Of a stretch of 64,000 nucleotides of DNA, positions 26,841-30,458 are shown one piece after another. Positions within the stretch are counted from its first letter, which is position 1; every line of letters begins with the position of its first letter. The position numbers and the translations under genes are program-made. The stretch lies in NCBI RefSeq assembly GCF_000009905.1, contig NC_006177.1:1178001-1242000 (forward strand), read 5' to 3'. The DNA comes from Symbiobacterium thermophilum IAM 14863. Lineage in GTDB: Bacteria > Bacillota > Sulfobacillia > Symbiobacteriales > Symbiobacteriaceae. A model generated the notes under the pieces. The model saw nothing but the letters and a program-made list of their open reading frames with translations, searched no databases and had not been told where the DNA came from.

Positions 26841-27833
26841 TTATCTCGGCACAGGCATGGGCAGGGGGGTTCTCTGCTGGTAGTCCCGGCTTCGGGACTC
26901 CAGGTGGGCGATGACGAGCTCCTGACCGTCCAGACGGCGGCGGGGCAGGCAGTCGGGTATCCGTCGCAGCATGCCCTGGAGGGAGAGGTCTTCGGCGTGA
27001 ACGACGGCCAGGTGAATCCCCCGCCGCAGGCAGATCGCCTGTTTGATGAGGTCGCGTCCCAACTGTCTGCGCGCCTGCTCTTCGCTGGGGTACAGCGCCG
27101 TCGGCCCGTAGTGCTGCGCACCGTTGAACTCGAACCCCGCGTTGGGCGGGTAGAAGCGGTCAATCTGCATCTCTTCGCCGGTGTAGGGGTTCACGAGGAA
27201 CCCGGGCGAAGCGTCGTCCTCGAAGTTGTCCAGATCGATCAGCAGGGTGAGCCACTCGCGCATCAGGGCCTCACCCCGGTACGGCGCCTTTTCCAACCGG
27301 CGGTTGATCTCGGCGATGGCCTTCTTCTGGGCGTCGAGCTGGGGATTGGAGAGAATGAGCTGAAACGGCCCCGTCCGCCTGGACCGGCGGACCTCAACCC
27401 AGCCCGCATCGACCAGGCTGCGCAGCGCCCGCCGCGCGGTGCTCGGATCGCAGCGTGTCAGTCTCGCGATCTGGTTGACCGTGATCTCCACTTGACCGTC
27501 GCGGAACGTGGGCGCCAACTGAAGGGCACCGTACGTGATCTTGGCCTGTGCGATGACACACCGGCTTCGTAGCAGATCCACGGGAAGGTAAGCATGTTGA
27601 CCCTTCGAGCAAGTCCAGGGTCTGAGCAGGGATAGTTGCTCAAGCTGTCTATAACTGGGTTTGATGGCGGTGCGGGAGAGCCCGCAGAGTTCGCTCAGGT
27701 GGTTCTGACCTCTTGGCCGGAGTTGAAGCCCCGCCCACGCCACCTTTGCCGAAGCGCCCAGCTGTTCATGGAACAGGATGAAGGCGGGCACCTTTACCTG
27801 GCTCGGCATGTACAGTCCGTTCACGCGCATCAC
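26841..27833 (-). CDS. Duplicated winged-helix protein with Vsr-like nuclease domain
   Basis: A 330-residue protein I cannot name. Two related helix-turn-helix segments occur in tandem. One covers residues about 28-75 (SAKVAWAGLQL then LSELCGLSRTAIKPSYRQLE). The other covers about 97-150 (QAKITYGALQL then VNQIARLTRCDPSTARRALR). The C-terminal part (about 210-285) has the pattern of Vsr-like/PD-(D/E)XK endonucleases: D225 in MQIDRFY, E235 in FEFNGAQHYG, and D261/K264 in RDLIKQ. It may therefore bind and cut DNA. The start is GTG at 27833 or ATG at 27830, with a weak ribosome site. A tandem palindrome array begins 95 bp upstream. Confidence 0.72.
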   Translation of the reverse strand: MMRVNGLYMPSQVKVPAFILFHEQLGASAKVAWAGLQLRPRGQNHLSELCGLSRTAIKPSYRQLEQLSLLRPWTCSKGQHAYLPVDLLRSRCVIAQAKITYGALQLAPTFRDGQVEITVNQIARLTRCDPSTARRALRSLVDAGWVEVRRSRRTGPFQLILSNPQLDAQKKAIAEINRRLEKAPYRGEALMREWLTLLIDLDNFEDDASPGFLVNPYTGEEMQIDRFYPPNAGFEFNGAQHYGPTALYPSEEQARRQLGRDLIKQAICLRRGIHLAVVHAEDLSLQGMLRRIPDCLPRRRLDGQELVIAHLESRSRDYQQRTPLPMPVPR

Positions 27834-27927
27834 CCGAATTTGCGTTCGCCACGTAGATGGAAATTCCTTCTAGATACTGCGGGTGTATGCAACCGTTCCC
27901 GGGGGTCGGGTCGGTAAGGGCGGCGAG

Positions 27928-28410
27928 GAGGCGGAATGTGCGGTGAGCGGAGGGGGACGAGTGCACATTCCGCCTCGAACTCGGGGCTTGGGGGCAAGTG
28001 AGTAATGTCGACGAGGCGGAATGTGCAGTGAGCGGTGGGGAGCGAGTGCACAATCCGCCTCGAACTCGGGGATCGGGGGCAAGTGGGTGATGGCGACGAG
28101 GCGGAATGTGCAGTGGGCGGTGGGGGGCGAGTGCACAATCCGCCTCGAACTCGGGGGTTCAGGGGCAAGTGGGTGAAAGCGAGGAGGCGGAATGTGCAGT
28201 GGGCGGTGGGGGGCGAGTGCACAATCCGCCTCGAACTCGGGGGTTCAGGGGCAAGTGGGTGATGGCGACGAGGCGGAATGTGCAGTGAGCGGTGAGGGGC
28301 GAGTGCACAATCCGCCTCGAACTCGGGGGTTCAGGGGCAAGTGGGTGATGGCGACGAGGCGGAATGTGCATTGGACGGTGGGGAGCGAGTGCACATTCCG
28401 CCTCGAACTC
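27928..28410. repeat. Tandem array of six 85-86 bp palindromic units
   Basis: Units start at 27928, 28013, 28098, 28184, 28270 and 28356; the last lacks its spacer part. Each opens with GAGGCGGAATGTGC and, 15-20 bp further, has the inverse arm ending CCGCCTC. This gives a stem of about 15 bp, followed by a 30-bp spacer containing GGGGCAAGTG. In units 1 and 6 the right arm (TGCACATTCCGCCTC) is a perfect complement; in units 2-5 it reads TGCACAATCCGCCTC, leaving one A-A mismatch. The array runs from 95 bp upstream of the nuclease gene to the stop codon of the amidase-like gene. Apparent ORFs across it are artefacts. Confidence 0.95.
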
Positions 28411-29812
28411 AGTCACGCATGGCCACGAACCAGTAGATTGTCTTTCGGTCCCACCCCAGGTCAAACGGCACGCGGTACCGATCGGCGGTGTGGGAGTTGG
28501 CCACCGGGTAGCCCCGGCTGTCGAAGCCGGTGATCAGGGCCACATGGGTCATCTTGCCCTTCTCCTCGTAGCCCAGCACGTCGCCGGGCTTCAGGAAGGA
28601 GCGAAACCCCTCTGGCCGGCCGGCGGCGATCCGCCACACGGTGCCGAAGTCGCCCCGGACCGCCAGGTCACCCTTGCCCGCGTACCGCAGGTGGCCGATG
28701 AGGGCGTCCGCCCTCGTGAACAGCGGCATCTGCAGCTTGCCCCCGTAGCGGAGCGCCTGGGAGACGAAGTTGGCGCAGTCGCCGCCCTCGCCCATGTAGT
28801 TGCGGAACTTCGGGTTGTACTTGTGGTCGTTGCCGCAGCCGGCGGCCAGGCCGCAGTAGGTGTCGGCGTATTCCACCGCACCACGGCGGTCGTACCGCTG
28901 CGCCGCCAGGGCGGTGACGGCGTGCAGCCCGGAGTTGCCCCGGTTACCGGAGGAGCGGCGAGCGGGCAGTTCCGCCGGCGCCTCCGTCTCGTCGCCCAGC
29001 GGGTCGGAGTACCACTCCAGCCCGATCAGCCAGCGGCCGTCGGCCGTCCGGTGCAGCTCGACGATGTGCCGGCTGCCCACGCCGAACCGGTTCACCGCCT
29101 CCTCCCCCGGGTACTGATACCCCAACTGCAACGTCTGTGCGACGTAGAACCGGGCGCGGTCCTCCGTCACCTTGAGCTCCTTCACCCAGATCCTGGTCCG
29201 TGCCTCGACGAAGCGGACCCCGCGCGCCTCTGCCCACGCCTTGACGTACCTGTACTTCCCCTCCTCGTGCAGCAGGGCCCACTGGGCGGTCTTCCGCTCC
29301 AGTAGGAAGTCCTCCTCCAGCGGCGGTCCCTCCCAGTCCGTCAGAAACCGCCGGGCTCTCCGCTCGTAGATCTCCCGCAGCCGAGGCGTGAGGTCCGGCT
29401 TCTCCGGCTCCGGCGGATCTACCGGCTGGGACTCCGACGATGGAGCCGGGGCAGGCGACTGCCCAGGCTCGGCTGCCCGGGACGGTTGGCCGGGCTCGGG
29501 CGCACGTGGCGGCTGCCCAGGCTCGCGTGTCCGGCGCGACTGGCCGGGCTCGGCCGCGGGGGGAGACTGCCCAGGTTCGGCCGCCCGGATCGGCTGCCCG
29601 GGATCGGGCGATGGCGATGGCCGGGGCTCGGCTGGCCGGGACGGCTGCCCCGGGGACCGCTGTCCCGGCGCCCGCAGCCGGGCCTGGGACGCGGGCGGCA
29701 CCGCCGCAAGCGCAGCAGGCACGGGTTGGCTGGCCGCCGGCCGGGGTTGGGCGCCGATCAGGATTGCCGTCAGCACGACGGCGTGCAGGTACGGGCGGTA
29801 CCGCCGCTTCAT
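28409..29812 (-). CDS. Exported protein with Amidase_6 domain and proline-rich repeats
   Basis: A 467-residue protein with an N-terminal hydrophobic signal (residues about 8-27). A low-complexity Pro/Gln/Arg region (about 40-130) contains imperfect 9-10 residue repeats of the type AEPGQSxxx. A helical or beta middle part follows, and the C-terminal Amidase_6 (putative amidase, NlpC/P60-like) domain starts near YDRRGAVEYADTY. The expected catalytic Cys is in GGDCANFVSQ and the His in MTHVALITG or NSHTADRY. It may cleave peptidoglycan or peptide amide bonds outside the cell. Its stop codon touches the palindrome array, and its upstream region is the 96-bp repeat array. Confidence 0.8.
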   Translation of the reverse strand: MKRRYRPYLHAVVLTAILIGAQPRPAASQPVPAALAAVPPASQARLRAPGQRSPGQPSRPAEPRPSPSPDPGQPIRAAEPGQSPPAAEPGQSRRTREPGQPPRAPEPGQPSRAAEPGQSPAPAPSSESQPVDPPEPEKPDLTPRLREIYERRARRFLTDWEGPPLEEDFLLERKTAQWALLHEEGKYRYVKAWAEARGVRFVEARTRIWVKELKVTEDRARFYVAQTLQLGYQYPGEEAVNRFGVGSRHIVELHRTADGRWLIGLEWYSDPLGDETEAPAELPARRSSGNRGNSGLHAVTALAAQRYDRRGAVEYADTYCGLAAGCGNDHKYNPKFRNYMGEGGDCANFVSQALRYGGKLQMPLFTRADALIGHLRYAGKGDLAVRGDFGTVWRIAAGRPEGFRSFLKPGDVLGYEEKGKMTHVALITGFDSRGYPVANSHTADRYRVPFDLGWDRKTIYWFVAMRD

Positions 29813-29888: not shown

Positions 29889-30458
29889 GGCATCGGTCGC
29901 GGTGCATCCTCTTTCTGTCACGTGCGCCTGTCGGCGACGAGGCTCTTATGCGTACCCGTCGACGACGATCCTCCTTCTTTCACGCACATCGATCGGCGGC
30001 AATCCCAAACCCGTCACGTGCGCCTGTAGGAGACAAGGCTCTTATGCGTACCTGTCGGCGACGATCCTCCTTCTTTCACGCACATCGGTGGGCGGCAATC
30101 CTATACCCGTCACGTGCGCCTGTCGGCGACAAGGCTCTTATGCGTACCCGTCGGCGACGATCCTCCTTCTTTCACGCACGTCGGTCGGCGGCAATCCCAA
30201 ACCCGGCAAGCGCACCTGTCGGCGACAAGGCTCTTATGCGTACCGTCGACCACGATCCTCCTTCTGTCACCCCCATCGATCGGCGACAATCCCAGACCCG
30301 TCACGCGCACCTGTCGATGACAAGCCTCTTATCCGTACCCGTCGGCAACGATCCTCCTTCGGTCACGCACGTCGGTCGGTGCGACAATCCTATGCCTGCC
30401 ACGTCCACCCGTCGGCGGCAATCCTCTTTCTGTCATGCGCGCTCGTCGGCGACATACG
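29889..30458. repeat. 96-bp higher-order tandem repeat array
   Basis: The motif beginning GTCACGTGCGCCTGT recurs, with drift, at 29917, 30013, 30109, 30205, 30300 and 30398, a period of 95-98 bp. Each period contains three related segments of about 28-34 bp, each carrying a core like TCGGCGAC followed by different tails (AAGGCTCTTATGCG, GATCCTCCTTCTTTCAC, AATCCCAAACCC). This makes it a three-monomer higher-order repeat, more diverged toward its right end. It fills the divergent gap between the Amidase_6 gene and sleB. Reading frames cross it but shift between copies, so I do not regard it as coding. Confidence 0.9.

Follow-up and report, generated by a model that had tools for sequence, protein, structure and literature searches.

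A tandem winged-helix, Vsr-like nuclease of Symbiobacterium thermophilum and its candidate partnership with dispersed palindromic arrays

A nuclease gene of Symbiobacterium thermophilum is associated with a family of long paired-arm palindromes, which form a tandem array next to the gene and further arrays elsewhere in the chromosome. We lean towards the view that the gene product is a cognate sequence-specific nuclease which, as a dimer on these iteron-like sites, would drive their homogenisation and spread. The domain make-up of the protein, the gene–array association, the dispersal of the repeats, their fixed spacing, the lack of covariation between their arms and their concerted change between species were computed; binding, pairing, cutting and copying are the steps that the protein would have to perform or set off. 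The family thus suggests an unrecognised bacterial route for keeping or spreading repeated DNA.

The gene is a 330-aa open reading frame with a GTG start, located next to the palindrome array in the window, that is, the whole 64-kb stretch of DNA analysed here, which comes from a genome of 3,566,135 bp. The features discussed below are as follows (the palindromic elements are given no strand).

26841–27833, minus strand: tandem winged-helix/Vsr-EDxHD-like nuclease gene, 330 aa (open reading frame list; alignments; model pLDDT 90.4)
27594–27809, minus strand: winged-helix domain 1, residues ~9–80 (model; RepE 8ac8_C and RepE54 9yzl_C alignments)
27345–27587, minus strand: winged-helix domain 2, residues 83–163 (Pfam HTH_36, 6e-7; 4pql/4pt7; PHROG replication-initiation families)
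26943–27281, minus strand: nuclease domain, residues ~185–297 (domain model; I-Bth0305I/Vsr/TnsA matches; PHROG; conserved residues)
27834–27923, minus strand: 90-bp gap between gene and array, presumed promoter site (by position)
27924–27980: palindromic element 1, core arms perfect (arm scan, unit scan)
28009–28065: palindromic element 2, one right-arm mismatch (arm scan, unit scan)
28094–28150: palindromic element 3, one right-arm mismatch (arm scan, unit scan)
28180–28236: palindromic element 4, one right-arm mismatch (arm scan, unit scan)
28266–28322: palindromic element 5, one right-arm mismatch (arm scan, unit scan)
28352–28408: palindromic element 6, core arms perfect, abutting the stop end of an amidase-like gene (arm scan, unit scan)

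The original prediction of two tandem winged helices and a Vsr-like nuclease domain is borne out by the predicted full-length structure (pLDDT 90.4; 89.5 for the C-terminal nuclease domain modelled separately) and by structure comparison. The fold matches of the winged-helix model and the nuclease are moderate (Z 6–8): model residues 9/10–162 align with RepE (8ac8_C; Z 8.3, 148 residues) and RepE54 (9yzl_C; Z 8.2, 146 residues), and the nuclease domain is nearest to I-Bth0305I (3r3p; Z 7.9, 93 residues, rmsd 2.6), followed by Vsr (Z 6.9/6.4; 1cw0, Z 6.9) and, lower, TnsA (Z 6.2). The second winged helix also matches the initiator structures 4pql and 4pt7 (Z 9.4 and 9.1) and Pfam HTH_36 (6e-7). 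Foldseek alone gave no match at E ≤ 0.001 for the full-length or the nuclease-domain model, and a sequence search of solved structures returned only winged-helix DNA-binding proteins among the best 60 of 69 matches. PHROG replication-initiation families match the protein weakly and the 25 Pfam families listed out of 72 do not include Rep_3, while PHROG homing-endonuclease profiles (PHROG_9084) match 33 of 35 homologues. Residues of the nuclease domain are highly conserved in the homologue alignment, with E235, H241 and K264 kept in 35/35, Q240 in 34–35/35, and D225 and D261 in 34/35. By contrast, the motif glutamate E188 is replaced by Q in 11/35, so that one clade may have altered or lost the activity. 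D225, E235, H241, D261, K264 and E188 are candidate equivalents of the EDxHD catalytic positions. As modelled, the protein thus consists of two RepE-like winged helices and a domain that resembles Vsr/EDxHD homing endonucleases.

The protein shares its catalytic-domain fold and its PHROG homing-endonuclease match with the EDxHD enzyme I-Bth0305I and, for the fold, with Vsr. Unlike EDxHD homing endonucleases, however, it is encoded by a free-standing ORF with no intron or intein seen at the gene (an Rfam gathering scan of the window gave tRNAs only), and its partner is a set of multicopy tandem target arrays. Likewise, the two tandem winged helices over 146–148 residues and the iteron-like arrays beside the gene recall RepE and the Rep_3 initiators, but here the sites are chromosomal and dispersed, the arms are paired in inverted orientation, no replicon was found and a nuclease domain is added. 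The nearest domain plan is that of Odn of phage ICP1, which combines an initiator-type DNA-binding domain with a homing-endonuclease-type nuclease and requires iterons for cleavage (PMC8263062). By analogy, the protein could be an origin-directed defence nuclease that mimics plasmid initiators and cuts the iterons of invaders, the chromosomal arrays being replicon remnants or decoys. Both the fusion of initiator-like winged helices to a homing-endonuclease-type domain and the iteron requirement of Odn fit this idea. Yet Odn is a GIY-YIG (T5orf172) nuclease directed against a parasite's origin, whereas here the fold is Vsr/EDxHD and the host chromosome itself is rich in cognate sites; moreover, PADLOC matches to the protein are weak and cover its helix-turn-helix part only. 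We consider a defence role of this kind improbable.

The array beside the gene consists of six tandem units, as had been proposed, at 27924–28408 (period 85–86, 91% matches, TRF score 796), and its core arms start at 27928, 94 bp away from the start codon. Each element is 57 bp long and comprises an 18-bp arm, a 21-bp interior and a second 18-bp arm, with 14-bp core arms. The arm scan likewise reproduces the reported contrast between outer and inner units: both 14-nt arms are perfect in units 1 and 6, and units 2–5 have one right-arm mismatch in common, GCACAATCC in place of GCACATTCC. The array reaches the stop codon of the amidase-like gene (28409–29812, minus strand) and so separates the 3′ end of that gene from the 5′ end of the nuclease gene; it is found on the upstream side of the nuclease gene only. 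A CRISPR array was rejected, since the spacers are near-identical within the array and the neighbouring genes encode an amidase and a pyrroline-5-carboxylate reductase. Another intergenic tandem array, of a different family (29917–30379 of the window; period 96, 4.8 copies), has no adjoining homologue of the nuclease protein.

The link between gene and repeat goes beyond this single adjacency. The genome encodes seven homologues of the protein, and in the genus (S. thermophilum and two relatives, G001 and G002) a long-period array lies ≤500 bp upstream of 12 of 20 homologues and downstream of none of the 20, where long-period means a TRF period ≥70 and score ≥400, this cut and the 500-bp rule having been set after seeing the data. 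The arrays lie ~90–400 bp upstream of the 12 genes, and most of them, not all, contain gene-specific inverted arms. At a 13th gene, L088, a DDE transposase gene (L088:2408–3463) stands between homologue and array. Within S. thermophilum, 4/7 homologues have an array (p ~5e-8), or 3/6 when the window is omitted (p ~5e-6). The 400-kb background contains five long-period arrays, four of them assigned by motif to families at nuclease-homologue genes, and its density predicts an array rate of ~0.6% per gene. Furthermore, arrays occur at both members of four orthologue pairs; the two members have a common motif in three of these (window/L113, L089/L132 and L088/L131) and not in L091/L141. That ordinary tandem repeats merely happen to lie upstream of a nuclease gene would accord with the lack of arrays at most homologues outside the genus, but it is at odds with both the 12/20 frequency and the motif common to three of four pairs, and we give this explanation almost no credence.

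Altogether, 67 homologue places were covered (7 own, 20 and 40), the remainder, largely fragments or places at contig ends, being excluded. Outside the genus, 0/47 homologues have a long-period array ≤500 bp upstream. The original prediction had regarded homologues commonly found without repeats as evidence against the pairing; such homologues are the norm outside the genus, and inside it the 12/20 association stands. The protein family is therefore broader than the array partnership, which is a Symbiobacterium elaboration of it. Inverted repeats are not clearly enriched outside the genus (7/57 upstream versus 2/57 downstream). Two homologues there, L163 and L166, have long-period arrays immediately downstream, and a homologue in G003 is bracketed by near-identical 45-bp hairpins (L121:825–869 and 2636–2680), which give it the look of a small mobile unit.

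The palindrome itself is a genome-wide family. A search for GAGGCGGAATGTGC with ≤1 mismatch yielded 75 genome matches versus 2 for the reversed control pattern, and 0 paired arms occurred in a 400-kb sample used as chance control. The family comprises 68 units at 14 sites, a count that excludes lone arms at 865835 and 1392226, and a 15th site, whose arm is a variant, comes in addition. In all counted units the 14-bp core arms are 21 bp apart; the unit scan assumed this gap, and a free arm scan gives the same one. A paralogue that is 67% identical (L086) has a different palindrome, also dispersed, at 7 sites, and the L090 family is confined to its home locus, with no dispersed copies. Identity within arrays is 90% for arms and 87% for interiors, compared with 0.81 and 0.48 between arrays, a sign of homogenisation inside arrays. 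In the nine arrays of at least five units, divergence is greater at the edges than inside (edge units 0.892, inner units 0.929; p 0.019), as expected of homogenising tandem arrays. The unlike outer and inner units at the nuclease gene are in part an instance of this general pattern, for which special selection on the ends need not be invoked.

Complementarity between the arms within arrays (197/252) is no better than after shuffling among arrays (200.8 ± 4.6), revealing no covariation and implying that the arms are kept as sequence and not as a stem. To judge from these comparisons, the sites resemble double-stranded targets of a protein rather than hairpins. An RNA or DNA hairpin element was rejected for the absent covariation together with the lack of an Rfam family in the window. 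Five unit periods (74.6, 85.4, 106.7, 117 and 127) fit 7, 8, 10, 11 and 12 turns of 10.64 bp (p 0.0005), in a test that used five hand-chosen period classes and an author-defined null, the 140- and 171/172-bp spacings being excluded. The latter spacings and the periods of other families (e.g. 199, 204 and 250) fit helical turns poorly or fall outside the test.

The repeats also follow the gene between species. In S. thermophilum (G000), the GGCG-type sequence GGCGRAATGTGC occurs 73 times and the GGCA-type GGCARAATGTGC twice, whereas in G002, which has an orthologue 69% identical, the GGCA type occurs 13 times and the GGCG type twice, with family members spread over six contigs; the G002 assembly is a draft of 88% completeness and its counts are therefore lower bounds. 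G001, whose nearest homologue is only 54% identical, has one GGCA-type and no GGCG-type match. Since sites L235–L239 were found with the GGCA pattern, the genome counts of GGCARAATGTGC versus GGCGRAATGTGC are the unbiased comparison. On these counts, palindrome presence tracks orthologue presence across the three genomes, and the sister species with the orthologue has a base variant of its own at almost every copy, while the species without it lacks the family. A search of 60 relatives, 19 of them with homologues of the protein, gave no exact copy of the palindrome. The two GGCA matches of S. thermophilum belong to a site whose flanking genes are 87–100% identical to those of G002, which points to recent exchange between the lineages.

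Orthologous sites differ in their repeats. At L071/L239 both species have arrays with different arms; at another site S. thermophilum has eight units, whereas the two units of G002 belong to a different family and G001 lacks any; at a third, the G001 counterpart (288 bp) is empty. Three G002 contigs, C3, C13 and C102 (L113, L235 and L237), end in or beside arrays, and repeat numbers are consequently underestimated. At L241:3640–3930 and L236:6989–7420, two species carry one and the same array, which differs between them mainly in unit number and has flanks 87–100% identical. In L238:2650–3200 of G002, units of two palindrome families stand side by side in one intergenic region.

This organisation resembles that of REP/RAYT pairs (REPtrons), in which one gene corresponds to one family of dispersed extragenic palindromes, often in tandem, whose variants differ between species in step with the gene (PMC2817692). 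The present family likewise has one gene per dispersed extragenic palindrome, often tandem, and repeats that co-diverge with it. However, the winged-helix and Vsr-like protein is unrelated to Y1 transposases, and no PF01797 domain is present in the genome, whereas 5/14 control genomes were positive; the gene is not flanked by two inverted repeats but has an array on a single side, and the 57-bp element has an interior of fixed length and arms without hairpin-type covariation. Membership of the REP/RAYT class thus fails on both the enzyme and the DNA form, and, in spite of the parallels of gene number, dispersal and co-divergence, an explanation by REP/RAYT or by any other system of single-strand transposition is very improbable. 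The nuclease–palindrome pairing suggested at the outset is upheld by the arrays at 12/20 genus genes, the dispersed family and the orthologue tracking; its comparison with RAYTs survives at the level of organisation and not as class membership. Protein and DNA form fall outside every repeat-partner system compared here, and the organisation of the pair is analogous to that of REPtrons. No paper on such repeat–protein pairing was found by title or opening of the abstract, and the organism's genome paper may contain an earlier mention of the repeats. In the cited papers, RAYTs are the described partners of dispersed bacterial palindromes; a nuclease partner, if real, would be a second, unrelated solution and would mean a convergent origin of repeat families with cognate enzymes.

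How a cognate nuclease might act can be outlined from these features. One molecule would read one 18-bp arm with its two Rep-like winged helices and a second molecule the inverted arm, so that the Vsr/EDxHD domains of the pair could meet over the interior, which is fixed in length and free in sequence. At 57 bp, the element comes close to the length of the I-Bth0305I target, nearly 60 bp, on which that enzyme dimerises (PMC3943268). Tandem elements at whole helical turns would align the bound pairs as on plasmid iterons; for Rep, cooperativity is reported to be lost at half a helical turn (PMC4980987). The home array is placed where it could regulate the nuclease gene. Cutting or nicking, followed by recombination between repeats, might then expand, contract and homogenise arrays and place copies at other gene ends. 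In its strongest form, a self-targeting nuclease drive, the dimer would cut or nick its own 57-bp elements, repair would expand, homogenise and seed arrays at gene ends, and the protein would co-evolve with dozens of repeats, with several such families per chromosome; we put this form forward as tentative, slightly short of an even prospect. Against the nuclease model, free double-strand cutting would be dangerous given ~70 chromosomal targets. The families would offer naturally occurring binding pairs whose targets are long and of fixed spacing, much like those of engineered dimeric nucleases, and would open to direct test the long-standing question of how intergenic repeats of bacteria are spread and homogenised.

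The main rival to the cognate-nuclease reading is a DNA-binding autoregulator or nucleoid organiser with a retired nuclease, for which the home array would be an operator and the dispersed arrays architectural or regulatory sites spread by ordinary recombination. The position of arrays upstream of the 12 genus genes, the fixed gap and helical phasing, which suit cooperative binding, and the E188Q replacement in 11/35 homologues all favour such a role. However, the near-complete retention of D225, E235, Q240, H241, D261 and K264 is unexpected for a dead nuclease, and the placement of the dispersed arrays is also unfavourable. Among the 23 dispersed arrays with readable flanks, 11 lie between convergent, 12 between tandem and none between divergent genes, whereas the 109 background gaps of ≥100 bp include 21 convergent, 58 tandem and 30 divergent ones (divergent deficit, p 0.0006); gene orientation was called by a heuristic based on GC by codon position, L079 was called two ways and the contig-end sites L235 and L237 were excluded. 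Regulon operators were rejected on this ground, since without divergent placement the arrays are unlike such operators and like REP elements. Overall, an organiser with a retired nuclease seems unlikely, albeit a serious contender. Separately, an array with a 126-bp period at L174:1100–1864, to which no partner gene is assigned, contains the perfect palindromes CGGCGGCTGGCC/GGCCAGCCGCCG.
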